Assembly (NCBI GenBank): GCA_002938125.1
Contig: PTLN01000007.1
Span: 1 to 33,196 of the forward strand
DNA length: 33,196 nt
Direction: 5' to 3'
Source: Alphaproteobacteria bacterium MarineAlpha2_Bin1
Lineage (GTDB): Bacteria; Pseudomonadota; Alphaproteobacteria; SHVP01
The first letter of the stretch is position 1. Each line of letters starts with the position of its first letter. The notes below the pieces were generated by a model. That model worked only from the letters and a program-made list of their open reading frames with translations, searched no databases and was not told the DNA's origin. Shown in pieces: positions 1,694-17,642 of this stretch. Made by a program: the position numbers and the translations under genes.

Positions 1694-2455
1694 TCAACCG
1701 GATTTCAATTGGAATGTTATTGGAACTTTTATTTTAGTTGGCAAAAGTATACCAGAAGCCTGAAATTTTTTATTTTTTATTTTTCTTGCTGCTTTTAATG
1801 CAGCTAAGTCTAATATCTTGTAACCACTTGAAGTATCTAAACTAACTTTAATAATTTTCATTGAACTATCTATGCTTAAACTGAGTATTACTTTTCCTTC
1901 AATACCTCTCAACCTAGCAAACCGAGGATATTCAGGTGTAATTTGAATTTCATTAAATTTTTTGACCTTGTAATTCAAATGATGACTATCTATTGAAATT
2001 AGTCTAATTTTTTTTGGAATTGATACCGTGCTTATATAAGAATTATTTATTTCAGAGAAATTGAATATATTTTTATTTTCTTTTAAAGTTCTGATTTTTA
2101 TTTTTTTTTGATTTTTCTCTGTTCCGTCAAAATAAAAATCATGAGATTCAAAATTTAACAAATCATCTTGTTTTACTTTTTTAAATACCTGTTTTTTATT
2201 AAAAACAGTATCTTTTACTACTTTCAACTTAGATTCCTTATTAATTATTTTTTTTGTAGTTTTTAAATATTTATTATTTAGAGTAGATTTATCAACAAAT
2301 TTTTTTTGCTTATCTTCAATTAAATTTACAACTACAGGTATATGATTTACGGTGCCTATACTTTTTTTATTATATGAATAAAAAATTACCAAAATAATTA
2401 ACATGTGCACAGACAAAGAAAAAAATAAAAATTTTTTACTAATACAATTTCTCAT
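1694..2455 (-). CDS. tonB: TonB-family energy transducer
   Basis: A 253-residue protein with an N-terminal membrane anchor (about residues 9-27), a long Lys-rich linker that would span the periplasm, and a C-terminal TonB domain: PEYPRFARLRGIEGKVILSLSID followed by LDLAALKAARKIK. TonB carries proton-motive energy from the inner membrane to TonB-dependent outer-membrane receptors. The linker is Lys/Asn-rich rather than the classical Pro-Lys repeat, which fits the AT-rich genome. It lies 4 bases after btuD in the B12-uptake operon and so is presumably the transducer for the BtuB-type receptor encoded at the head of that operon. No exbB or exbD is in the window. Confidence 0.9.
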   Translation of the reverse strand: MRNCISKKFLFFSLSVHMLIILVIFYSYNKKSIGTVNHIPVVVNLIEDKQKKFVDKSTLNNKYLKTTKKIINKESKLKVVKDTVFNKKQVFKKVKQDDLLNFESHDFYFDGTEKNQKKIKIRTLKENKNIFNFSEINNSYISTVSIPKKIRLISIDSHHLNYKVKKFNEIQITPEYPRFARLRGIEGKVILSLSIDSSMKIIKVSLDTSSGYKILDLAALKAARKIKNKKFQASGILLPTKIKVPITFQLKSG

Positions 2456-2459
2456 TCTT

Positions 2460-3203
2460 TTAACTCAAAATTAATTTATTTCCATCATATTCTACCGCAA
2501 AAATTTCTTTAAGATTTTTATTATCTAGAGATATATGCGGCCTATCATTAAAAATAACTTTACCATCTCTAATTACAACAACATTGTCACAAAATCTTCT
2601 CGCTAAATCTAAGTCGTGCATTATTATTATAGCTCCCATCCCAGACTTAACCCTCTTTAATATTAATTCCAGTATATTTAACTGATAATAAGGATCAAGA
2701 GACGAAACAGGTTCGTCCGCTAACAAAAAGTTTGGGTTTCCAACTAATGCTCGGGCTAGGCACACTCTAGACCTCTCACCAGTCGATAATATATTTACTG
2801 ATTTCAATGCAAATTTTTTTAGATTTAACTCTTCTATAATTGAGTTAACCCTTTTATCCTTTTTTTTATTATTTAACTCTTTGTCAGGAAAGGGTATAAG
2901 GCCTGCCATTATTACATTGTATACAGAAAGGGGCCAAGCAATTGTTATTTCTTGAGGTAGATATGAAATTTTCTTTGCTAGATCTAATCTACTATATTTT
3001 TTGTAATTTCTATTATTATAGCAAATGGATCCAGAATAAGTGGTTAAAATATTTGCAATAATTTTTAGTATAGTGGTTTTTCCAGAACCATTTGGACCTA
3101 CTATTCCAGTTAAAACGCCAGAACGAAATAAAATATTTATTTCTGATAAAATATTTTTTTTACGAATATCCAAACTAACTCTATCCATTAATATCTCTGT
3201 CAT
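2460..3203 (-). CDS. btuD: ABC transporter ATP-binding protein, cobalamin-type
   Basis: A 247-residue ATPase of the FecE/BtuD group. Walker A GPNGSGKTT is at residues 36-44, the Q-loop Gln near 84, the signature LSTGE at 139-143, Walker B FLLADE at 159-164 and the switch His in IIIMHD at 196. All catalytic elements are intact and length is normal. It would power cobalamin import through the inner membrane with the permease encoded just upstream. The start ATG overlaps the permease stop as ATGA, the usual sign of translational coupling. B12 specificity comes from context (riboswitch and btuB-like receptor), because the ATPase alone does not distinguish B12 from iron-siderophore systems. Confidence 0.9.
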   Translation of the reverse strand: MTEILMDRVSLDIRKKNILSEINILFRSGVLTGIVGPNGSGKTTILKIIANILTTYSGSICYNNRNYKKYSRLDLAKKISYLPQEITIAWPLSVYNVIMAGLIPFPDKELNNKKKDKRVNSIIEELNLKKFALKSVNILSTGERSRVCLARALVGNPNFLLADEPVSSLDPYYQLNILELILKRVKSGMGAIIIMHDLDLARRFCDNVVVIRDGKVIFNDRPHISLDNKNLKEIFAVEYDGNKLILS

Positions 3204-4219
3204 GCTTGTATGCGCTTTATATAAAAAATTAAATAGATAAAGAACGGGGCGCCAATTATTGCTGTTACTACTCCTATTTGTAACTCTGGGTTGATATCTA
3301 AAAGTCTAATAAAAATATCCGCTAATAATAACATAATAGCACCACCTATTCCTGAAGGTAAAAGTAACTTTTCAGGATTATAATTGTATAGAGGCCTTAA
3401 TAAATGTGGAACAACCAAACCAATAAAACCTATTCCGCCCGTAATAGAAACAACCGAACCAATTGATAGAGCTGATCCAATTATTATTTTACTTCTAAAT
3501 ATTCTTAAATCTAACCCCATAGATTGAGCTGTCTCTTCCCCAAGTGAAAGGGCAGTAAACCATTTTTTTGAAAATATAATAATTATCCAACCTAAAACAG
3601 TAATTGGTGTAATCATTAAAACATGATTAAGATTTTTATCAGCTAGTGATCCCAAAAGCCAAAACATTATTTCATATGCTGCATATGGACTAGGAGATAA
3701 ATTTAATGTCAGAGATGTTAATGCTGATGAGAATGAACTGATTGCAACACCTGTCAAAATAATTACAAGAGTACTAACATTACTTTGAATTATAAAAAAA
3801 ATAACCATAACTGCAATTATTGCTCCAATAATTCCCCCTAATGGTAATGCAAAGAAAAAAATATTTGCAAGACCAAAGTAAAAAATAATTACCGATCCTA
3901 AACCTGCAGAGGAAGTAACACCTATAATACTTGGATCAGCCAATGGATTCCTAAACAGACCTTGCATAGCTGCTCCACAAATACCAAGTGAAAAACCAGC
4001 TATAAGCGCTAAAATAGTTCTTGGGAGTCTTATTTCTAAAATTAATACTCTTATTAATTCTTTAACATCATTAGATTTATCAGATAATAATAGTTCAATT
4101 AAATTTATCTTTCCAAATAATACAGAAAATACTAGAAGAAAAATTAAAATAAAAAATAGTATTATTGTTAAAAGATTATTAAAAAAGTCATCCGCATTTA
4201 AAAATTTGAACTTAGTCAT
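3200..4219 (-). CDS. btuC: FecCD-family ABC permease, cobalamin-type
   Basis: A 339-residue polytopic membrane protein of the FecCD/BtuC family. Hydrophobic segments run throughout, with the family motif RLPRTILALIAGFSLGICGAAMQGLFRNPLADPSIIG near residues 63-100 and a conserved GGIGFIGLVVPHLLRP region near the C-terminus. It would form the inner-membrane channel as a homodimer and receive B12 from the periplasmic binding protein. The start is 4 bases after the btuF stop and the stop overlaps the btuD start. A ferric-siderophore permease would look very similar; the cobalamin riboswitch upstream decides the call. Confidence 0.92.
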   Translation of the reverse strand: MTKFKFLNADDFFNNLLTIILFFILIFLLVFSVLFGKINLIELLLSDKSNDVKELIRVLILEIRLPRTILALIAGFSLGICGAAMQGLFRNPLADPSIIGVTSSAGLGSVIIFYFGLANIFFFALPLGGIIGAIIAVMVIFFIIQSNVSTLVIILTGVAISSFSSALTSLTLNLSPSPYAAYEIMFWLLGSLADKNLNHVLMITPITVLGWIIIIFSKKWFTALSLGEETAQSMGLDLRIFRSKIIIGSALSIGSVVSITGGIGFIGLVVPHLLRPLYNYNPEKLLLPSGIGGAIMLLLADIFIRLLDINPELQIGVVTAIIGAPFFIYLIFYIKRIQA

Positions 4220-4223
4220 TGTG

Positions 4224-5042
4224 TTATTTAATTAACTCTTTAATTATTTTTGTTGAATAAGGACCACTACAGTTCATTAATTTTTTATTTAAATTTAGAA
4301 CTTCTCCTTTTTTTACTATATACTTTATAACAGAATGGTTTAAGAATTCTTGAGACAAAGACACCGAATCGCTATAACTATCTTCTATAATAACAACTTC
4401 AGGATCTGAATAAAGGATTTGTTCAAGACTAATCCTGCCATAGGAACTAATATTTAAATTACTAGTTACATTAGTATAACCTATTTCTTTAAGAATACCC
4501 CCTACAAGTGTATCTTCTCCAGTAACATAGCCATTTGGACTTATGATAATAACTTTTTTATTTTCTTTTCTTTTACTATAATTAAAAAATTTTTTTATTT
4601 CATTATCAATTTTATTTACTAATTCTAATCCCTTTTTTTCTCTATGTAGTAATTTAGCAATGAGATAAACTTGTTCTTTAATTTGTTTAAAATTTTTTGC
4701 ATCAGATATATTTACAACTTTATAATTCAATTTTTGCAATAGGCTTACTGTGGCAATCGAGGATCCCAGTCCTGCAAAAATTATATCCGGATCTTGTCTA
4801 ATAATCTCTTCTGCGCGCCCATTATTTAATTTAATATCTAATATTTTATCTGATATAAAAGAAATATTTTTATCTTTTGACATATAACTGAGTGAGGTAA
4901 TTTGATTTTTGTTTGCAATTAAATATAAATATTGATCCGTACATAAATTTATTGATGCAGCTGTAATATTATTAGCATTTAAAGTATTTATTATAGCAAC
5001 TAAATACATTGACAAAGATAGAAATAAAAAAAAATTTACCAT
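4224..5042 (-). CDS. btuF: Periplasmic cobalamin-binding protein of ABC transporter
   Basis: A 272-residue substrate-binding protein with an N-terminal signal peptide (hydrophobic residues about 3-22). It begins its mature domain with ASINLCTDQYLYLIA and ITSLSYMS, typical of alphaproteobacterial BtuF-like proteins encoded beside B12 receptors. It then shows the two-lobed type III binding-protein pattern (RAEEIIRQDPDIIFAG, ISLEQILYSDPEVVII). It would carry cobalamin from the outer-membrane receptor to the permease. The ATG lies inside the last codons of the receptor gene (7-base overlap), indicating coupled translation. Ligand identity is inferred from the operon and riboswitch. Confidence 0.88.
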   Translation of the reverse strand: MVNFFLFLSLSMYLVAIINTLNANNITAASINLCTDQYLYLIANKNQITSLSYMSKDKNISFISDKILDIKLNNGRAEEIIRQDPDIIFAGLGSSIATVSLLQKLNYKVVNISDAKNFKQIKEQVYLIAKLLHREKKGLELVNKIDNEIKKFFNYSKRKENKKVIIISPNGYVTGEDTLVGGILKEIGYTNVTSNLNISSYGRISLEQILYSDPEVVIIEDSYSDSVSLSQEFLNHSVIKYIVKKGEVLNLNKKLMNCSGPYSTKIIKELIK

Positions 5043-6973
5043 ATTTTCTTAAACCCAAGATGCAAAGATCTATCTTGGCCCTTAAAACCATCAGCAACTT
5101 CATAATTATTATCTGTCAAATTGTATATTTTACCATATATTGTAAGATTATCATTTACTTTATAATTTGTTACAATGTTTGATACTATATAACCTCCTCT
5201 GTAAACTGACCCCCCATTAAACCCTACATCACTTGTTTTACCTATATATTTAATTGTATTAATAATTTCTAATTTCTCTAAAGGGAATACTTCTAAATTA
5301 AAATCAACCTTATGTTTTGGTCTTCTCAAAAGAGCTGTACCAGATTCTTTATTTTCTGCTGAAGTAAATGTATGTGAAAGATTAATTTTAATTTTTTTGT
5401 TTGGAATTATTGTTGCCTGTGTTTCTATTCCATTTATTTTCGCATTAAGAGAATGGATTGGTACTGTAGGAAAACCTGAGGCTACAATTAGATCATCAAT
5501 TTTGGTATCAAAATAGGTAATACCTAAGAATAAATTATCATCAAATAATTGTGAATCAAAACCTAGTTCCCAGCTTTTTGATTTTTCAGGGGAAAGATCT
5601 CTATTGCCTCTAAAACTATCGCCAAAGGCAGTCGTCGAGCTTCCAAAAAGCTCAAAAAGTGCTGGTGCTCTAAAACCAGTTCCGTAAGCACCTCTTAGCC
5701 TAGTGTTAATTGAATTTATATAAAAAACTGGGCTAAATCTATACGTAAAATCACCTTTAAATCTTTTATTTTTATCATACCTTAGATCTCCAATAATATG
5801 AAAATATTCAGAGAAACTAAAAGTATCCTGTAAGAAAACTGTTTTTGTTACTGATGTTTCTGAGCTTGATCCTTCGATTATAAATCCACTAAAATCTGCG
5901 AATTGTGTATTATCTTGCTTTTCATGTTCATACTCAAACCCAAGGCTCAAAATATGATCTTCAAAGAAAAGTATGTCACTCCTTAAGTTCAGTTTTACTC
6001 TTTCACCATCATCAAGAGTTGACTGAAAAGTATTAGATAATTGATCAGGATAGTTAAAAAATTCTCTATTAATTTTACTTAGATTCACAGAAAAAATATT
6101 ATTAACGAAACCATCAAATATAAATGAGGATACTTCTAATTTAGTAAAATATTGTGTGGAGGTAGAGTTTGCATCGGGATCTTCAGCAGTTGGATCTAAT
6201 TCAGCTTTAGTATCAAAATAATGAAATATAAAATTTAAATCAGTAGAATCATACAAATCTAAATTCAATCTTAATGAACCAGAGACATTTTCAAAAGAAT
6301 CTTTCTCATCAAAAGTTCCCGCGCCTCTGAACCTTGAAGACGTTATGGAGTCACCGTCTGAAGCATTAAAACTTAGAGAACTTATAAACTTTATTCTTTG
6401 AAATACTCTTGAAATCTCTAAATTTTCTCTGTGAGAGGAATTTGTGCCTAGACTCATTTTATATGTGAAATAATTTGCTGAAGGAACTGGAGTAATAATA
6501 TTTACAACACCACCTATTGCTTCAGAACCATATGTTGACGCTTGTGAACCTCTTAAAACTTCTAACCGATCAATCATGCCTAAAAATACATTTCCATAAT
6601 CAAATGCTCCACTGGACGCACTAGGGTCACCCATCTCAATACCATCAATCAAAATTAGTGAATGATTAGAATTAGTTCCTCTAATAAATATTGAAGTCTG
6701 ATGTCCCATATTACCAATAGAAACCCTATTCAGACCCGGAACTTGAGAGAGAGCCTCAGATAGATCAGTAAACTGCATTTTATCAATTTCTATACTATCA
6801 ATTATACTAATAGGACTTCCAATTTTTTTGGAGGGTGTATTTATTCTTGTAGCTGTAACAAAAATTTCTTCAGGTATGTAATATTCCTCTGCAATAGCAA
6901 ATTTAGTAATATAAACAGAGGCTATTAAGATAAAAATAAACTGATAATAGAATAGACATTTTTTAGAGAACAT
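5036..6973 (-). CDS. btuB: TonB-dependent outer-membrane cobalamin receptor
   Basis: A 645-residue TonB-dependent receptor. It has an N-terminal signal peptide ending near AIA/EE, a TonB box EEIFVTATR at residues 35-43, and a plug domain from about 45 to 162 with the characteristic SIFIRGTNSNHSLILIDG and RGSQASTYGSEAIGGVVNIITP. A beta-barrel follows to an aromatic C-terminal residue (Trp), as outer-membrane proteins need for assembly. It would bind B12 at the cell surface and import it with TonB energy. It is the first gene of the operon, just downstream of a cobalamin riboswitch, which supports the BtuB call over a siderophore receptor. Confidence 0.93.
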   Translation of the reverse strand: MFSKKCLFYYQFIFILIASVYITKFAIAEEYYIPEEIFVTATRINTPSKKIGSPISIIDSIEIDKMQFTDLSEALSQVPGLNRVSIGNMGHQTSIFIRGTNSNHSLILIDGIEMGDPSASSGAFDYGNVFLGMIDRLEVLRGSQASTYGSEAIGGVVNIITPVPSANYFTYKMSLGTNSSHRENLEISRVFQRIKFISSLSFNASDGDSITSSRFRGAGTFDEKDSFENVSGSLRLNLDLYDSTDLNFIFHYFDTKAELDPTAEDPDANSTSTQYFTKLEVSSFIFDGFVNNIFSVNLSKINREFFNYPDQLSNTFQSTLDDGERVKLNLRSDILFFEDHILSLGFEYEHEKQDNTQFADFSGFIIEGSSSETSVTKTVFLQDTFSFSEYFHIIGDLRYDKNKRFKGDFTYRFSPVFYINSINTRLRGAYGTGFRAPALFELFGSSTTAFGDSFRGNRDLSPEKSKSWELGFDSQLFDDNLFLGITYFDTKIDDLIVASGFPTVPIHSLNAKINGIETQATIIPNKKIKINLSHTFTSAENKESGTALLRRPKHKVDFNLEVFPLEKLEIINTIKYIGKTSDVGFNGGSVYRGGYIVSNIVTNYKVNDNLTIYGKIYNLTDNNYEVADGFKGQDRSLHLGFKKIW

Positions 6974-7024: not shown

Positions 7025-7059
7025 CACTTCTGAAACACCCCGTTCATTAGTTGGGCAAT

Positions 7060-7200
7060 TTGTACGGCAGGTCTCCTGGCTTATGGATAATCACTTTATA
7101 TTCTGCCTTCCCAGTTTCCCAGTGGCTAAATACGAAATAAAGCTAACCAAACACAGTTGCGGGGACAGCCACGGAATAATTTTTACCGTGTTCCCTTTTA
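7060..7200 (-). promoter_or_regulatory. Cobalamin (adenosylcobalamin-class) riboswitch aptamer
   Basis: The minus strand carries the conserved cobalamin aptamer core in order: GGGAACACGGT...ATTCCGTGGCTGTCCCCGCAACTGT, then GCCACTGGGAAACTGGGAAGGC, then the B12 box AGCCAGGAGACCTGCC. These blocks and their spacing are diagnostic of the cobalamin riboswitch family. The RNA lies in the leader of the btuB-btuF-btuC-btuD-tonB operon, about 90 bases before the btuB ATG. In known members, B12 binding lowers expression of the downstream uptake genes. Confidence 0.96.
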
Positions 7201-7225
7201 ATTTTTGTTAAAAACCGCTATATTT

Positions 7226-7254
7226 AATTTTATAAAAAATTAATTTTAAGTCAA
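7226..7254 (-). promoter_or_regulatory. Possible sigma-70 promoter for the B12 operon
   Basis: TTGACT on the minus strand (7254-7249) is a good -35 match upstream of the riboswitch. The -10 is not clear: TATAAA (7234-7229) gives a 14-base spacer, and the hexamer at 17 bases is a poor match in an all-A/T stretch. Position is right for a transcript starting just before the aptamer. Confidence 0.35.
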
Positions 7255-7280
7255 GCACTATTAATATTAAGTGTTTTTGT

Positions 7281-7284
7281 GGAG
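7281..7284 (+). promoter_or_regulatory. Ribosome binding site that decides the hupE start
   Basis: GGAG lies 7 bases before TTG 7292, whereas GTG 7271 (the ORF-track start) has only AT-rich DNA upstream and lies near the divergent promoter region. Confidence 0.6.
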
Positions 7285-7291
7285 CAGGTTA

Positions 7292-7909
7292 TTGATAATA
7301 AAAAAAATTTTATTTTTTTTAGTAATTATACCTAGTTTATTTGTAACAAAAATATCTTCAGCTCACCATTTTATAGAAGGCGAAGTCCCTAGAAACCTTC
7401 TACAAGGTCTTATCTCAGGAATTGCTCATCCAGTAATTGGATTAGATCATTTATTTTTTCTAATTTTTACCTCTCTTATTGTTTATTTTATATTCAAAAA
7501 AAATTTCTTTATTTTTTTATTTATATTTTCAACAATTTTAGGAAGTTTTATATCTATCTTTAATATAAGTTTTCCATTATTAGAACTGTCAATAATTGTT
7601 TCCATATTACTTGTAGGATTTTCTTTCTTCATTTATAAAAGTATCCCAAGTTTCGTTATACTTATTTCGTTTATTATATTTGGCATTCTTCATGGAAGCG
7701 CTTATGGTAAAACAATTATTGATGCGTCGGTACAAATCCAAATATCCTATATTCTTGGTTTTACTTTAATTCAATTTATAATATGTCTACTTAGCTTTTC
7801 GTTGGTTAAATTATTTGTTAATACGGAATCAAAAGAAAATTTTAGCCGATATATAATCGGATCACTAAACATTAGTGCTGGGGCACTAATGTTATATATT
7901 TATTTTTAG
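7292..7909 (+). CDS. hupE: HupE/UreJ-family metal permease (probable cobalt/nickel uptake)
   Basis: A small polytopic membrane protein with the family signature HPVIGLDHLFFLI and a second conserved HGSAYG. Both His-rich motifs are thought to bind Ni or Co in HupE/UreJ proteins. The ORF track starts it at GTG 7271, but a GGAG at 7281-7284 sits 7 bases before an in-frame TTG at 7292. That start gives a clean signal-like N-terminus, IIKKILFFLVIIPSLFVTKISSAHHF (cleavage after SSA), and 205 residues. I prefer 7292. It is divergent from the riboswitch-controlled B12 operon. HupE genes are known companions of B12 regulons, so a cobalt role is reasonable, but specificity is inferred. Its 3' end nearly abuts the convergent RND gene. 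Confidence 0.82.
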   Translation: MIIKKILFFLVIIPSLFVTKISSAHHFIEGEVPRNLLQGLISGIAHPVIGLDHLFFLIFTSLIVYFIFKKNFFIFLFIFSTILGSFISIFNISFPLLELSIIVSILLVGFSFFIYKSIPSFVILISFIIFGILHGSAYGKTIIDASVQIQISYILGFTLIQFIICLLSFSLVKLFVNTESKENFSRYIIGSLNISAGALMLYIYF

Positions 7910-11063: not shown

Positions 11064-12545
11064 CTAATTGGTATTAAGAACTTTTACATTCTGATTATCT
11101 CTTAAAGACTCGTTTCCTCTAATTACTACTAAATCTCCCTCTTTTAAGCCTTCTCTAACAATAAATCTATTGTCATTTGAGCCCATTAAGGAAATAACTT
11201 TTTCCTTAACCTTTCCTTGAGAAACAACAAACACATATGATTTGTTGTCTTTAGAAATAACTCCATCCTTATGGACAGTAATGCCAATTTCTTTGCTGTA
11301 AACTGGCATATTAATATTAACACTTTTATTAAGGCTTAGATTATCATCTAAATTCTTTCTTTGAATTGAAAACCTAACTTCTGCTGTTCTCGTTAATTGA
11401 TTTTCTTCAGGCAGAATTGCCCTTACAAACGCATGAAATCTGTTGGAATTATCAAAACTTATTGAGACCTTTTTACCAATTTTAAGTGATGATAAAATCT
11501 TTGTTGGAACTTGTGCAGAAATCTCTAAATTTGACATATCTAAAAGAGTTAAAGCAGTCATACCAGTTGATATATAAGACCCAATACCTGTATTTATTTT
11601 AATTACCATACCACTGAAAGGTGAAGTAATAATTGTATTCTTTAAATTCAAATTAGCTCTATTAAGTTCTTCAACCGCTTGCTCTAATAATGACTCTCTT
11701 TCATTAACTACTGATTTTTTAATAATTATATCTTGTGTAATATTATCAAATTTTTTCTTTGAAAAAGCAGAAGAGTTTTTCAAACCTTCTATTCTTTTCT
11801 GATCAAGCAAAACTTTTTCTAACTCTGCCTGAGCTATTTTTACTTGAGATTGCCTTTGTCTTACAATCGCAAATCTTTTTTGTGCCTCTAACTCAAATTG
11901 GTCCTGTTGTATTTTTATTAAAAAGTCACCTTTTTTAACTTTATCTCCTACCTTTACCATCACCTCAGTAATTGTTCCAGAAACTTTAGATGAAATAGGA
12001 CCATTCGCATTGCCAACCAGCCTGCCAATTATAGAAACGGTTTGACTCAATTTACTTAACTCTACTTTATCAGTAAATACAGCACTTTTATTAGCAGTAA
12101 AGAAAGTATTTAGCTCTTTCGGATCAATTATATTATCAGAATTTGTATCAATTGATGAAAACCTATTAGCAATAAAACCTGAAGCTTCTTTACGTTCAAT
12201 CAAATTGTTATTATTTTTATCTAAAAATTTTATTCTTGATGGAAGAATTTTTGGATTACTATTCTCATTTTCCGTGACATCAGATTGAGAGCCAAATTTT
12301 TTTTTAAAAAAATTTGAGATCTCACTTCCGTCAAGCATCTCATTATTATCGTTATCAATTGCCTCAAAATCGGTTTTTAGAGGTCCTATAGCTTCGTTTT
12401 TGTCAATAAATCCATTTTTATTAATGTCTAATTTTTTTGCTCTCTCAGATAGATCCGTGGCTACAGCAGCAGATAAACTAAATATTAATGTTATTAGGAT
12501 TATAAATAAAAAGCTCATTAAATATTTATCAATAACCCCGTACAT
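11064..12545 (-). CDS. RND periplasmic adaptor (MFP/HlyD-like) with four N-terminal EF-hands
   Basis: I place the start at ATG 12545 (493 residues), not the ORF-track 12611: AAGAGGA precedes this ATG by a few bases, and 12611 falls inside a plausible -35 box. The N-terminus is a signal peptide ending near SAAVA. Four 12-residue EF-hand loops follow (numbered on the 515-residue track ORF): DINKNGFIDKNE at 62-73, DNDNNEMLDGSE at 86-97, DKNNNNLIERKE at 131-142 and DTNSDNIIDPKE at 155-166, each with Asp/Asn at positions 1, 3 and 5 and Glu at 12. A standard adaptor follows: barrel-sandwich hybrid (GPISSKVSGTITEVMVKVGDKVKKGDFL), alpha-hairpin coiled coil, and beta-barrel/membrane-proximal domains. 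It links the RND pump to an outer-membrane channel. The Ca-binding module is unusual here and suggests calcium-dependent folding or gating. Confidence 0.9.
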   Translation of the reverse strand: MYGVIDKYLMSFLFIILITLIFSLSAAVATDLSERAKKLDINKNGFIDKNEAIGPLKTDFEAIDNDNNEMLDGSEISNFFKKKFGSQSDVTENENSNPKILPSRIKFLDKNNNNLIERKEASGFIANRFSSIDTNSDNIIDPKELNTFFTANKSAVFTDKVELSKLSQTVSIIGRLVGNANGPISSKVSGTITEVMVKVGDKVKKGDFLIKIQQDQFELEAQKRFAIVRQRQSQVKIAQAELEKVLLDQKRIEGLKNSSAFSKKKFDNITQDIIIKKSVVNERESLLEQAVEELNRANLNLKNTIITSPFSGMVIKINTGIGSYISTGMTALTLLDMSNLEISAQVPTKILSSLKIGKKVSISFDNSNRFHAFVRAILPEENQLTRTAEVRFSIQRKNLDDNLSLNKSVNINMPVYSKEIGITVHKDGVISKDNKSYVFVVSQGKVKEKVISLMGSNDNRFIVREGLKEGDLVVIRGNESLRDNQNVKVLNTN

Positions 12546-12583
12546 TATTCCTCTTGAAAAAAATTTGTATATAATTAAATCTA

Positions 12584-12611
12584 TATATATCTGAGATCTA
12601 TGTAAACTCAA
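12584..12611 (-). promoter_or_regulatory. Candidate promoter for the adaptor-RND operon
   Basis: On the minus strand TTGAGT (12611-12606) and TATATA (12589-12584) are 16 bases apart. Transcription would start near 12577, leaving a leader of about 30 bases with an AAGAGGA ribosome site before ATG 12545. Moderate consensus match in AT-rich DNA. Confidence 0.4.
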
Positions 12612-12629: not shown

Positions 12630-13157
12630 ATGAAACTTGGTTTTATTACACTTTTTACTAGCTTTTTTATTTTTTCATTCACCTCAACCATTGGAGCAGA
12701 ACCTATAGATACACATACAGATAAATTCAGACTTGAGACCTATTTTTTGGGAAAAACCAAGGCTTGGGGTATAATTGAAAATAGGTTTGGCAAAAATAAA
12801 TTTACACACTTTGAAGTTGATATTACAGGTTCTTGGGACGGAAAAATTCTCACTCTTGAAGAAGATTTCCTCTACTCATCAGGAAGGACAGATCGTCGTG
12901 TTTGGAAAATTAGTAAGACTGGTGAAAATACCTATTCTGGAACCGCAGATGATGTAATAGGTGTGGCTAACGGAGAAATATTAGGCAATAGATTTAGTTG
13001 GAAATATTATATGAAACTTCCCATTGGTAAAAGTGTAATAAAAGTTAAATTAGATGATAAAATGTGGCTTCAAAAAAATGGCGTACTTATAAATAATGCA
13101 AAAATCAAAAAATTTGGTTTAAAATTTGCTGATCTAACTATTTTCTTTATAAAGTAA
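12630..13157 (+). CDS. DUF3833 family secreted protein
   Basis: A 175-residue protein with a signal peptide (MKLGFITLFTSFFIFSF...IGA/E). It then has the DUF3833 pattern: FRLETYFLGKTKAWGIIENRFGK, VDITGSWDGKILTLEEDFLYSSGRTDRRVWKI, and KMWLQKNGVLINNAKIKKFGLKFADLTIFF. The biochemical role of the family is unknown. Members often occur with cyclopropane-synthase-like, DUF1365 and FAD-oxidoreductase genes, which are present here on the opposite strand. No lipobox Cys follows the signal peptide, so this copy looks soluble and periplasmic rather than a lipoprotein. AAAGG lies 6 bases before the ATG. It is divergent from the EF-hand adaptor gene and convergent with the lipid cluster. Confidence 0.85.
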   Translation: MKLGFITLFTSFFIFSFTSTIGAEPIDTHTDKFRLETYFLGKTKAWGIIENRFGKNKFTHFEVDITGSWDGKILTLEEDFLYSSGRTDRRVWKISKTGENTYSGTADDVIGVANGEILGNRFSWKYYMKLPIGKSVIKVKLDDKMWLQKNGVLINNAKIKKFGLKFADLTIFFIK

Positions 13158-13170
13158 TTTTAAAGTCGAT

Positions 13171-13605
13171 CTATATCGAAAGTTTCTTAATTAAATATCT
13201 AATTAAATATTTAATTATCGGTATTTTAGCAAAAATTTGGGAAGCAGAGTCCCAATAGTCTACATGCGAAGTAACTAGACCATCTTCATTAAATTTAATT
13301 TCGCTTATCCCTTCAATTTCTACAAATTTACCACTAGAAAAATTCCACTTCATGTACGCTGTATTATTAATTGTACAAATATCACTTATAAAAAATTTGG
13401 GATTAGACGCTTGCTTATACATATGTTGAAAAACTTTTTTAAACTTATCTAAACCAGTAAAAGAGTTAAAAGGATCTCTAAAAAACATATCTTTTGCGCA
13501 CAGTATATTTAAACTTTCAATTTTATCCTCTGTAATATTTTCAAAGAATTCTCCATATATTTTTGCATAGCTTCCAACATTTATCTTTGGATTACTTGTG
13601 ACCAA
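13171..13605 (-). CDS. NTF2-like / SnoaL-like fold protein
   Basis: A 144-residue protein with the NTF2-like cone-fold pattern: an N-terminal helix (YAKIYGEFFENI), MFFRDPFNSFTGLDKFKKVFQHMY, then strands ending FNEDGLVTSHVDYWD. These proteins bind small hydrophobic ligands or act as simple isomerases or hydrolases; its substrate is not evident. The TTG start at 13605 is supported by GAGG seven bases upstream, overlapping the DUF6134 stop, so translation is probably coupled. It is the last gene of the SpeD-FAD-DUF1365-Cfa-DUF6134 run. Related NTF2 genes occur in similar lipid clusters in other proteobacteria. Confidence 0.8.
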   Translation of the reverse strand: MVTSNPKINVGSYAKIYGEFFENITEDKIESLNILCAKDMFFRDPFNSFTGLDKFKKVFQHMYKQASNPKFFISDICTINNTAYMKWNFSSGKFVEIEGISEIKFNEDGLVTSHVDYWDSASQIFAKIPIIKYLIRYLIKKLSI

Positions 13606-13609
13606 TGTT

Positions 13610-14257
13610 CTACCTCATAAAATAATCTATTTCATTTCCTCTTGCAACGAATGCAATCTTTACTAATGAATTGTTATGATACCATAAAGATAGATTTAAA
13701 TCATTAGAGATATCATATCTTTCAGCTGATATTTTCTTACCATGAAAGCTCTCTATATTTTCAACCCCATTGTAGCTAATATTTAAATTAAGAGGGATGC
13801 CTCTTTGAGTATCTAACCAATTTTTATTTTTTATGCTCAAATAATTCCAATAACTAGTTGGGACAATCTCTAAAGGTAGAACTTTAGTTCCATCCTGCGT
13901 ATTTATGATAAAACCTTCTTTAGTTGATTTGCCATTTATAAAAAAATTTTTCCCATTATCATATGTTGTAGTATTAATCTGGAATAATTTTCCATTTCTC
14001 CATGTCTCTTTATTTTCATGTTTATATGAAAAAAGTTTTACAAAACCTAGTTTTACTTCTAGCTCAATATTAATACTTACAATAAGATCCTCATTATCCT
14101 GTTTTTTAAACACTATTTTATGGAAACCAAATTCTTTTCCATTTCTAGTAACAAGGAAATTAATATTTTCTGGCAGCTCAGCACTTTTACTGGTCAATGG
14201 GAATATCAAAAAAATTAAAAAAATTTTAAATAAGAATTTATACTTAATGAGTTGCAT
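13610..14257 (-). CDS. DUF6134 family periplasmic protein
   Basis: A 215-residue protein with a signal peptide (KYKFLFKIFLIFLIFPLTSKSAE). The rest is beta-rich: NINFLVTRNGKEFGFHKIVF, KLFSYKHENKETWRNGKLFQINTTTYDNGK, and a C-terminal YDISNDLNLSLWYHNNSLVKIAFVARGNEIDYFMR. This matches the DUF6134 family as I know it, whose function is not established. Fold and setting resemble periplasmic lipid-handling proteins, but this is inference. It starts 11 bases after the Cfa stop and runs into the NTF2-like gene. Confidence 0.7.
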   Translation of the reverse strand: MQLIKYKFLFKIFLIFLIFPLTSKSAELPENINFLVTRNGKEFGFHKIVFKKQDNEDLIVSINIELEVKLGFVKLFSYKHENKETWRNGKLFQINTTTYDNGKNFFINGKSTKEGFIINTQDGTKVLPLEIVPTSYWNYLSIKNKNWLDTQRGIPLNLNISYNGVENIESFHGKKISAERYDISNDLNLSLWYHNNSLVKIAFVARGNEIDYFMR

Positions 14258-14268
14258 ATTAATTTTAA

Positions 14269-15465
14269 CTAATTATTTTCCATTATAATTTGGCGCACGT
14301 CTATACCTTCTCCTCTAAACGAACCCTCACAACTGGCAAGATAAAAACTCCATAACCTTTTAAACCTGGCATCAAACCCTAAGTTTTTTATCTTTGGCCA
14401 TGCGTTATGAAAACTATTTCTCCATATTGCTAGTGTGCTAGCATAATCTTTACCAAAACCTTTATCACTTATAATATTCATGCCTACTTCATTACAGTTG
14501 TCTTTTATGCTTCTTTGGCAAGGCAGCATACCACCTGGAAAAATATATTTTTGAATAAAATCAGGTTGCTTTCTATATATCTCAAATTTTTCATCCTTTA
14601 CAGTTATTGCTTGAAGCGCAAACCGCCCTCCTTTTTTTAAATTTTGAGAAATTGATTGAAAATACTTTGGCCAGTAATTCTCCCCAACAGCTTCTATCAT
14701 CTCAATAGAAGCAATGTGATCAAATTTTGAAGAAAAATCCCTGTAATCGCATAATTTAATATTAATTTTTTCTTGTAATCCAAGTTTTCCTACTAATTGA
14801 TTAGCATAATTATATTGTTCATTTGAAATAGTTAAACCTGTGACTTTAAAACCTTCTTTTGCAGCAAATATAGCAAACCCCCCCCATCCACAGCCAACTT
14901 CTAATATATGCTCACCTTCTTTAACTTGCAGAGAGGTTAATATTCTAGAGTATTTTTTCCCCTGGGCATCTTCAAGATTCTGGGAATTTTTAATTTCAAT
15001 AGCAGATGAGTAAGTCATACTATTATCAAGCCAATATGAATAGAATTCATTTCCAAGATCATAATGGAAAGCAATATTCTTTTTGCTGCCCAGTCGAGTA
15101 TTATGATTTATGAGGTGTCTTAACCAATTATATTTCCTTAACAGCAGTTGACCCTGATTTTCACTATGAATAGAATTTTTTGTAACCAATTCAATAAAGG
15201 TTGGTAAATTAGATGAGTCCCACTCACCAGCTAAGTACCCTTCTGCAAAGCCAATACTTCCGTTAAAAAAAAGCCGAAAAATAGGTCTCCAGGTATGTAA
15301 AGAAATATTAGCATCCGGCCCTGACATTTCTCCATGTATTTTACCTTCAAACCCGTTAGGAAGCCTGAATGATAATGATCCCAATTTAAACTGGCTGGCT
15401 ATTTTTTTTACTATAGGCCTAATAAAAATTGGCACTTTTTTATAATTATGGTCTAAATTCATCAT
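14269..15465 (-). CDS. Cyclopropane-fatty-acid-synthase-like SAM methyltransferase
   Basis: A 398-residue member of the Cfa/mycolic acid cyclopropane synthase family acting on membrane phospholipid acyl chains. Seen in order: FHYDLGNEFYSYWLDNSMTYSS (133-154), the SAM site ILEVGCGWGGFA (187-198), IEMIEAVGENYWPKYF, YIFPGGMLP (307-315), DYASTLAIWRNSF and FYLASCEGSFR. Compared with E. coli Cfa bicarbonate ligands, the Glu (EAVG) and Tyr (DYAST) are kept, but Cys139 aligns with Ser154 and His266 with Gln285. Family members with such changes are often methyltransferases in clusters like this one rather than classical cyclopropanating enzymes. I therefore leave the symbol blank. Two adjacent ATGs (15465, 15462) are possible starts. 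Confidence 0.9.
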   Translation of the reverse strand: MMNLDHNYKKVPIFIRPIVKKIASQFKLGSLSFRLPNGFEGKIHGEMSGPDANISLHTWRPIFRLFFNGSIGFAEGYLAGEWDSSNLPTFIELVTKNSIHSENQGQLLLRKYNWLRHLINHNTRLGSKKNIAFHYDLGNEFYSYWLDNSMTYSSAIEIKNSQNLEDAQGKKYSRILTSLQVKEGEHILEVGCGWGGFAIFAAKEGFKVTGLTISNEQYNYANQLVGKLGLQEKINIKLCDYRDFSSKFDHIASIEMIEAVGENYWPKYFQSISQNLKKGGRFALQAITVKDEKFEIYRKQPDFIQKYIFPGGMLPCQRSIKDNCNEVGMNIISDKGFGKDYASTLAIWRNSFHNAWPKIKNLGFDARFKRLWSFYLASCEGSFRGEGIDVRQIIMENN

Positions 15466-15517
15466 AGATAAAATTAATAAATTAGGTATGAAAAAACAAC
15501 GTAAAACTATAATACTT

Positions 15518-16363
15518 TTATTTATTTTTTGGCAAAAAAACCTTGAATATACTTAAGAACAACGAGATAGAAATTGCAACCGTTTTATTTTTTATCTTAG
15601 GTATCTCAGGGGAAACTGGGATACCCTTCAAAAATAATCTAAATGCCTCATAGTGTATTGCAAAAATAACTTTAATTGTCATTAAAGGATATAAAAATAT
15701 ACAAATTATCAAATTAATAACTGAAAATTTTTTTCTCTTACCTTCAAAATAAGCCGATAAGATTTTCTCTTCTTTTTCTAGTTCGTCAATACGAATAAAA
15801 AATTTTTCTTCTGGAATTATTATTTTAAAATCATATTTATGATCAATTGGATTAAATGGGGAAACTATCATTTTTTTCATACATGAGTGACTAAGAATAT
15901 TTGATTTTGAATTAACTTTAATTAAATAACAATGCTGATCACCAAAAGTATTTTTTACTTCATAAACTATGACCCTGAGAGAATTATTTTTATTAAAATA
16001 AAAATAAATTGTTATTGGGTTAAAGACATAACCAAATACTCTCGGAAAACAACTTACATATACTTTTCCATCAAAAGAAATACCATTTTGTTTTAATAAA
16101 TCAACAAACCAATTAAATGTAGAGGATCCATCTCTTAGGCCATGGTCAATATCATAAAAACTAAATATGGAGGGTCTATTATAATTAAATAAAAGATTAT
16201 ATTTTTTAATATTTTCAAAATATTTTAAATTAGCGTGAATAAAAAAAGCTTTATACAGGAATCTATGAATTTTTGGTTTTTTTCTTATATGTGTAATTGA
16301 TCCCAAATATAAGTTGAACTCAGATTCTAATTCTTTACTTCTAAATAAAGTCACTCTAATCAT
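15518..16363 (-). CDS. DUF1365 family protein
   Basis: DUF1365 protein with the characteristic N-terminus LYLGSITHIRKKPKIHRFLYKAFFIHANL, the central FNWFVDLLKQNGISFDGKVYVSCFPRVFGYVFNPITIYFYFN and VIVYEVKNTFGDQHCYLIKV, and a hydrophobic C-terminal stretch. Molecular activity is unknown; it accompanies FAD oxidoreductase and Cfa genes in many proteobacteria and is inferred to act in acyl-lipid modification. The ORF track starts at 16387. I prefer ATG 16363 (281 residues): the family starts here, GGAAAG precedes it, and it overlaps the upstream stop as ATGATTAG, indicating coupled translation. Confidence 0.87.
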   Translation of the reverse strand: MIRVTLFRSKELESEFNLYLGSITHIRKKPKIHRFLYKAFFIHANLKYFENIKKYNLLFNYNRPSIFSFYDIDHGLRDGSSTFNWFVDLLKQNGISFDGKVYVSCFPRVFGYVFNPITIYFYFNKNNSLRVIVYEVKNTFGDQHCYLIKVNSKSNILSHSCMKKMIVSPFNPIDHKYDFKIIIPEEKFFIRIDELEKEEKILSAYFEGKRKKFSVINLIICIFLYPLMTIKVIFAIHYEAFRLFLKGIPVSPEIPKIKNKTVAISISLFLSIFKVFLPKNK

Positions 16364-17642
16364 CTTTCCATGGCACATGGCATCCAAATTTTTTTGCTAT
16401 TTTAATCCCAGAGGTAAGGCCATCTTCATGGAAACCAAAACCATTCCACGCTCCAGAATACCAGGTATTTTTTTTCCCTTGCATTCTATCAATTTGAGAC
16501 TGGTATTGAACCGTTTTTAAATCATATATTGGATGAAGATATTTAAATTCTTTATATACTTTTTCAGCTGATGGGGGTTTTGGGGGGTTAAGTGAAAGAA
16601 AAAAATTATTTTTACTTTCAATCTTTTGCAAAAGATTTAACCAATATGTAACAAATACTTTAGAATTTGTATTTTGATTTTCATTTGAAAAATAATTCCA
16701 ACTCGACCAAGCATTTTTTCTTCTTGGCATTAAATCAGCATCACTATGAACAAAACAAATATTCTCTTCGACATCAAATTTTTTTAAAATTTCTGTTTCC
16801 TCTAGTGAAGGATCTCTCAAAATTTTTAATATATTTTGTGGATGAATCGCAAAAATAACGTGGTCAAAATCTAAATTTTGTTTTTCTAACATAATTTTTA
16901 TAGTATTATCGTCTCTTGAAACACTAGATATATTTGAGTTCAAAATTATTTCACCACCAAAATCATCCAACAGTTTTTTTATATATAATTTGCTTCCGCC
17001 CTTAATTGTTCTCCATTTAGGGCGGTTTAAAAAGCTTAACAAACCATGGCTATTATAAAAATGAACAAATGACTCTGCATTAAAATTCATTACTCTTTTT
17101 ATTGGCTGTGACCAAATAGCTGATGCCATTGGAAATAAATGGTCGTAGCAATAGTATTTTGAAAATTTACCTAACTCCAAAAAATTTATGAGATTAATAT
17201 CCTTTCTGTTTGATTTAAAATTATATTTTTTTGCAAATTTATAAAACTTAGGGATATCAAAAAGCATTCTTAAAAATCTTTTCTTAGCAAGATTTGAAGG
17301 TTGTATGAAAGGGCCTAATGGCAGAGTGCTTGCGTATTCAAACGCCCCTTCACTTGCTGAAACAGAAAATGACATATTACTTTTTTGAGTAGGAACATTA
17401 AAATGATTCAATAGATTAACAAAATTTGGGTAATTAAAATTATTAAAAACAATAAAACCAACATCTAAATCATAACTTGTTGACTCATGATTTATTGTTA
17501 TTGTATTTGCATGCCCACCTATATAGTTATTACGCTCAAATAAAGTAACCGTATTATTTTGAGATAAAAGCCAAGCTAGCGAGATCCCTGATACACCAGA
17601 ACCTATTACAGCTATCTTATTTTTTTTGTTTTTTATGATCAA
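16356..17642 (-). CDS. FAD-dependent oxidoreductase (amine-oxidase-like)
   Basis: A 428-residue flavoprotein. The dinucleotide-binding motif IAVIGSGVSGISLAWLL is at residues 10-26, followed by LFERNNYIGGHANTI. Next come the subfamily's VGFIVFNNFNYPNFVNLLNHFNV and a C-terminal YSGAWNGFGFHEDGLTSGIKIA (FAD site). It belongs to the NAD(P)/FAD-binding amine-oxidase-like group found beside DUF1365 and Cfa genes, proposed to oxidise or desaturate acyl chains; the reaction is unproven. The start is a TTG with no clear ribosome site and no better candidate nearby, so the exact N-terminus is uncertain. It lies 42 bases after speD and overlaps DUF1365. Confidence 0.88.
   Translation of the reverse strand: MIIKNKKNKIAVIGSGVSGISLAWLLSQNNTVTLFERNNYIGGHANTITINHESTSYDLDVGFIVFNNFNYPNFVNLLNHFNVPTQKSNMSFSVSASEGAFEYASTLPLGPFIQPSNLAKKRFLRMLFDIPKFYKFAKKYNFKSNRKDINLINFLELGKFSKYYCYDHLFPMASAIWSQPIKRVMNFNAESFVHFYNSHGLLSFLNRPKWRTIKGGSKLYIKKLLDDFGGEIILNSNISSVSRDDNTIKIMLEKQNLDFDHVIFAIHPQNILKILRDPSLEETEILKKFDVEENICFVHSDADLMPRRKNAWSSWNYFSNENQNTNSKVFVTYWLNLLQKIESKNNFFLSLNPPKPPSAEKVYKEFKYLHPIYDLKTVQYQSQIDRMQGKKNTWYSGAWNGFGFHEDGLTSGIKIAKKFGCHVPWKDD

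Follow-up and report, generated by a model that had tools for sequence, protein, structure and literature searches.

The inspection of a 33,196 nt stretch of DNA from Alphaproteobacteria bacterium MarineAlpha2_Bin1 (contig PTLN01000007.1, assembly GCA_002938125.1; this whole stretch is referred to as the window) showed an open reading frame on the reverse strand (11064-12611) with its ATG start codon at 12545, preceded by the Shine-Dalgarno-like sequence AAGAGGA. The 493-residue product is composed, in a single unbroken frame, of a signal peptide, an EF-hand module and the body of an RND adaptor (Table 1). The body contains barrel-sandwich, alpha-hairpin, beta-barrel and membrane-proximal parts, and it matched RND_mfp TIGR01730 (3.4e-55; 187 bits for a cut-off of 95), the Pfam models HlyD_D23 (4.7e-24) and HlyD_3 (4.8e-15), the PDB entries of MacA, MexJ and ZneB and, in Foldseek, MacA (1.3e-16). 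The product of 11067-12545 (-) is therefore an RND periplasmic adaptor. Its signal peptide has no lipobox Cys, the likely signal peptidase I site, assigned by eye, falling between AVA and TD. Alignment placed the module after the signal peptide and before the first membrane-proximal strand of the adaptor. The gene for the RND permease starts 9 bases after the adaptor stop codon.

Table 1. Features of the adaptor-permease operon in the window.
Feature	Coordinates	Strand	Remarks
Start codon and signal peptide	12462..12545	-	Residues about 1-28; hydrophobic stretch, helix in model
EF-hand pair 1	12297..12461	-	Residues 29-83; Pfam EF-hand matches
EF loop 1, DINKNGFIDKNE	12393..12428	-	Residues 40-51
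EF loop 2, DNDNNEMLDGSE	12321..12356	-	Residues 64-75; Glu replaces Gly at position 6
EF-hand pair 2	12090..12254	-	Residues 98-152
EF loop 3, DKNNNNLIERKE	12186..12221	-	Residues 109-120
EF loop 4, DTNSDNIIDPKE	12114..12149	-	Residues 133-144
RND adaptor body and stop codon	11064..12083	-	RND_mfp TIGR01730
Cognate RND permease, 1045 aa	7917..11054	-	PDB RND pumps matched; NCBIfam RND_permease_2

The original prediction, made from the nucleotide sequence, placed four EF-hand loops, grouped as two pairs, between the signal peptide and the adaptor body, and this was confirmed. The N-terminus matched EF-hand_6 (3.7e-7) with 29.7 bits, above the Pfam cut-off of 25, as well as EF-hand_1 (3.8e-5), and all four loops obey the rule on which the prediction was based (D/N at positions 1, 3 and 5, a hydrophobic residue at 8, D/E at 9 and E at 12). 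The pair profile A3 aligned to 12297-12458 (E 1.8e-25) and 12090-12251 (E 1.9e-25), values to be read in the light of the profile containing this same sequence. The loops are separated by 12 residues within each pair, and the pairs by 33. When the 129-residue module was shuffled 20,000 times, four strict loops were never obtained; a single loop appeared in 37 of the shuffled sequences, and never more than one. These shuffles, together with the conservation described below, rule out an artefact of chance or composition, while a frame fusion or assembly error is ruled out by the identical architecture seen in independent genomes and metagenome-assembled genomes (MAGs). AlphaFold predicted two helix-loop-helix pairs with a short beta bridge between the paired loops, with a pLDDT of 77 for the module overall and of 85-89 across most of both pairs, in models of isolated proteins, rather than of the assembled pump, built on shallow alignments of 4-5 sequences. 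All 50 Foldseek matches listed for the module were EF-hand proteins (best E 5.5e-3, none reaching 0.001). The model of the full-length adaptor was poor (pLDDT 63, pTM 0.28), and the arrangement of domains was not read from it.

Adaptors were expected to lack such a module as a rule. In agreement with this, Pfam found no EF-hand in five orthologues without the module, in which the signal peptide leads directly into the body, and the others that were inspected had no such module either. The search for the same architecture in other genomes, in a sample containing one genome per species, found the module in 13/13 orthologues of one alphaproteobacterial clade and in none of the 26 orthologues sampled outside it. 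In a tree of these 39 adaptors, computed from body columns only with the EF columns excluded, the 13 module-bearing proteins lay on one side of a single branch with a support of 100/100, so that one change is needed; the simplest reading of the sampled tree would be that the module was gained once. Within the window's order an orthologue was present in seven of ten genomes, always with the module (7/7), and the other three gave no orthologue match at E 1e-35. A class-wide profile search of 385 genomes returned 75 orthologues at E 1e-60, and the matches that extended over the module came from the window's family and from one other family, f102 (4/4 genomes). The trait thus marks a clade larger than the window's genus. 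A search of contigs yielded five loci. The true relatives among these were three, namely two further MAG contigs carrying the module and a third belonging to the same genome as G007. Outside the class, a search of 299 genomes from the phylum, with a threshold of E 1e-60, detected no adaptor-EF-hand fusion, and a search of plasmids for the fusion gave no match.

Within the clade, one EF-hand pair is as common as two. A single pair is present in loci L004, L005, L006, L049, L054, L056 and L059, and two pairs in L047, L048, L058 and all three species of the genus to which the window belongs. The two pairs of one protein are 87% identical in L047 and 80% in L058, and 33% in the window. The pair duplications of L047 and L058 look recent, given how closely alike their two pairs are, and they also look separate from one another; the tree of individual pairs has only 55 columns and its deeper branches were left unused. 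The EF-hand pair itself seems to be a portable exported module. The long frames with EF-hand pairs found elsewhere were, among those inspected, EF-hand-only or DUF1566-like proteins by sequence. Two loci of another genus of the same phylum (L122 and L175) code for DUF1566-like proteins with a like EF-hand pair, EVRGPLKNDFSRID, at the C-terminus.

The divergence of the window's second pair from the first, and the loss of the Gly at position 6 from loops 2, 3 and 4 (E, N and N, respectively; only loop 1 keeps it), would be expected of a decaying or neutral N-terminal spacer that binds no metal in the window species. The pattern of conservation makes this improbable, as the ligand residues are far more conserved within the genus than the neighbouring positions. 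When the window's genus was compared across its three species, identity was 92% at the 20 ligand positions, 57% elsewhere in the loops and 65% in the remainder of the module; of 5,000 sets of positions drawn at random from the module, only 2 were as conserved as the ligand set. This stronger constraint on the ligand positions speaks for selection on metal binding, the second pair apparently included and the lost glycines notwithstanding. Across the clade, all 19 pairs share D1, N3, N5 and E12 in the first loop, and D1 and E12 in the second. The module also has a ligand signature of its own when set against 111 reference loops of EF-hand proteins that other alphaproteobacteria encode: Asn or Ser occupies position 5 in 34/38 module loops versus 8/111 reference loops, and Asp or Glu occupies position 9 in 34/38 versus 19/111, a plain difference, although both sets include related sequences and its significance is overstated. 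The mean number of acidic ligands per loop is similar (3.0 and 3.7 for the first and second module loops, 3.5 for the reference). With Asn at positions 3 and 5 in the first loop, and Gly6 absent from three of the four window loops, the affinity may be low, to a degree that could leave the sites responsive or, in the window species, even empty.

The pair profile found lanmodulins as its top PDB matches (8e-14, the next match being at 6.5e-10), which raises the question of whether the module might be a lanthanide-binding relative of lanmodulin fused to a pump. Lanmodulins have been defined by four EF-hands, 12-13 residues between neighbouring hands and a Pro at position 2 of at least one loop (PMC10232371). 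The window species does have four EF-hands, with 12-residue spacing within each pair and an acidic position 9; like lanmodulin (PDB 6mi5, 8fns), the module is periplasmic and alphaproteobacterial. However, several clade members have only two loops, the pairs are 33 residues apart, Pro2 occurs in 0/38 loops, the window loops have 3-4 acidic ligands each versus 4-5 in lanmodulin, and the NCBIfam LanM model gave 40.4 bits for a cut-off of 135. Unlike lanmodulin, the module is part of a pump adaptor and its hosts mostly lack a PQQ alcohol dehydrogenase: matches to the model for this enzyme were weak or absent, and in no case convincing, in 15/16 host genomes, with none above the model cut-off. Further, a 12-residue linker was found in 24/28 alphaproteobacterial EF-hand proteins with at least two loops (loci L143-L172). 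Because it is the norm in the class, this linker is not diagnostic and should not, alone, identify lanmodulins. The lanthanide link was rejected on the lack of Pro2 and of a convincing PQQ alcohol dehydrogenase, and we consider it highly improbable.

A metal-binding addition to an RND adaptor could also serve to capture a substrate, the module handing Ca2+ or another hard cation to the pump for export. There is a precedent, since RND adaptors with metal-binding additions at either end have been described (PMC4446572), but the features of the permease make this reading distinctly improbable here. The permease matched NCBIfam RND_permease_2 with 2e-171, below the subfamily cut-off, and scored 572 bits with a multidrug model compared with 336 bits for CusA/CzcA TIGR00914 (cut-off 701), both scores being below cut-off. 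By sequence it is HAE-like and closest to the multidrug RND models, with nothing metal-specific. The motifs of TM4 (GMVVDAAIVVLEN) and TM10 are identical in permeases whose adaptor has or lacks the module, and the permeases of both groups span the same range of lengths. The chemistry of the pump thus looks unaltered by the module. A permease change co-varying with the module was also sought and rejected: apart from the shared TM motifs, 16 columns differed in a comparison of 11 permeases from EF-hand loci with three from loci lacking the module, too few for a conclusion.

In its whole body, domain order, signal peptide and operon with an RND permease, the protein resembles the adaptors of the MexA/AcrA/MdtA/MacA type (TIGR01730), from which it differs by the one or two EF-hand pairs that precede the body. 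In a review of adaptors, additional metal-binding domains at the N- or C-terminus are described for metal pumps only (CusB and SilB); the review mentions neither EF-hands nor calcium, and none of the adaptors it names has such a module (PMC4446572). Excerpts of a later review (PMC8277102) make no mention of EF-hands. CusB and SilB do share with the window's adaptor a metal-binding addition at one end. In those copper and silver pumps, where such additions are already described, they bind a soft metal through a Met-rich stretch or a CusF-like barrel and feed the substrate to an HME pump, whereas here the addition is an EF-hand, suited to hard cations, and the permease is HAE-like. In its fold, short linker and periplasmic export, the module resembles the secreted or periplasmic EF-hand proteins of Pseudomonadota, such as EfhP, the Caulobacter CaBP and PF13202 proteins; these are mostly small and separate, while the module is part of an adaptor and has a differing ligand signature (N/S5, D/E9). 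The statement in the original prediction that no characterized adaptor is built this way held up, in that no paper describing an EF-hand joined to an RND adaptor or HlyD protein was found in the library of open-licence papers searched. As far as those papers show, accessory metal-binding domains on RND adaptors are known, and an EF-hand fold in this role has apparently not been reported before.

Taken as a whole, the data suggest, with a probability of about 0.5, that the module is a clade-specific, Ca2+-folded accessory domain near the membrane-proximal end of the adaptor, and that its role is structural or in docking rather than that of a dynamic gate. An ordinary EF-hand pair of the alphaproteobacterial secreted type would have been gained once by the ancestor of the clade, inserted into the adaptor gene of a two-gene RND operon, after the signal peptide and ahead of the first membrane-proximal-domain strand, and would have been retained since then, doubling to two pairs in several lineages. 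Each pair would bind Ca2+ in the periplasm and so fold into a compact domain, probably tethered by a short linker close to the adaptor's inner-membrane end. If the adaptor forms hexamers, as it does in known pumps, a ring of 12-24 Ca2+ sites would surround the pump, and the Ca2+-stabilized domain might either aid the assembly of the adaptor on the pump or recruit a periplasmic partner. Were this true, a hard-cation EF-hand on a multidrug-type pump would mean that envelope calcium is able to act on tripartite efflux directly, through structure. The clade with the module, its close relatives without it, and the one-pair and two-pair versions form a natural test set.

The original prediction raised the idea of a calcium gate or sensor, in which the binding and release of Ca2+ at the module would switch adaptor docking or pump activity in response to changing envelope or external calcium. 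EF-hand pairs often alter their shape with Ca2+, the N/S5 and D/E9 residues make up a specific set of ligands by which affinity could be tuned, and calcium regulation of RND pumps is on record for another organism (Khanam 2017, going by its citation in PMC9132961). Seawater calcium is, however, high and fairly constant, so sites of micromolar affinity would stay saturated, and the comparison of related loci revealed no regulatory partner linked to the operon. We therefore regard a gate as doubtful. The narrower proposal that periplasmic calcium switches pump assembly or efflux directly via a Ca2+ sensor in the adaptor, with no regulator or change in transcription, appears unlikely. The structural or docking role is preferred to a switch on the grounds that the sites would normally be kept filled by external calcium. 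This expectation is based on the calcium-rich habitat that the original prediction suggested and on the 13.7 uM Ca2+ affinity of EfhP, another periplasmic EF-hand protein (PMC9132961).

Almost every related locus whose flanks are intact has kept the adaptor-permease pair. In L047, a short MAG contig that ends soon past the adaptor, the permease was not called. The operon of family f102 retains neighbours common to relatives without EF-hands, namely genes that by sequence resemble those for histone deacetylases and polyprenyl synthases, and in most of the window's family the operon adjoins a cyclopropane-synthase cluster. In the window this cluster (12630-17642) includes genes for DUF3833, SnoaL-like, DUF6134 and cyclopropane-fatty-acid synthase proteins plus two more; its conservation extends across the window's genus and to part of the family. 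On the other side, the efflux operon adjoins a cobalamin-uptake operon formed by a cobalamin riboswitch (RF00174, 106.8 bits; 7049-7234, -) and the genes it leads (1694-6973, -), which code for a TonB-dependent receptor, a periplasmic binding protein, a permease, an ATPase and a TonB-like protein. A gene for a HupE/UreJ-family membrane protein (7271-7909, +; 2.7e-26) separates the cobalamin operon from the RND gene, and it is conserved in a sister species.
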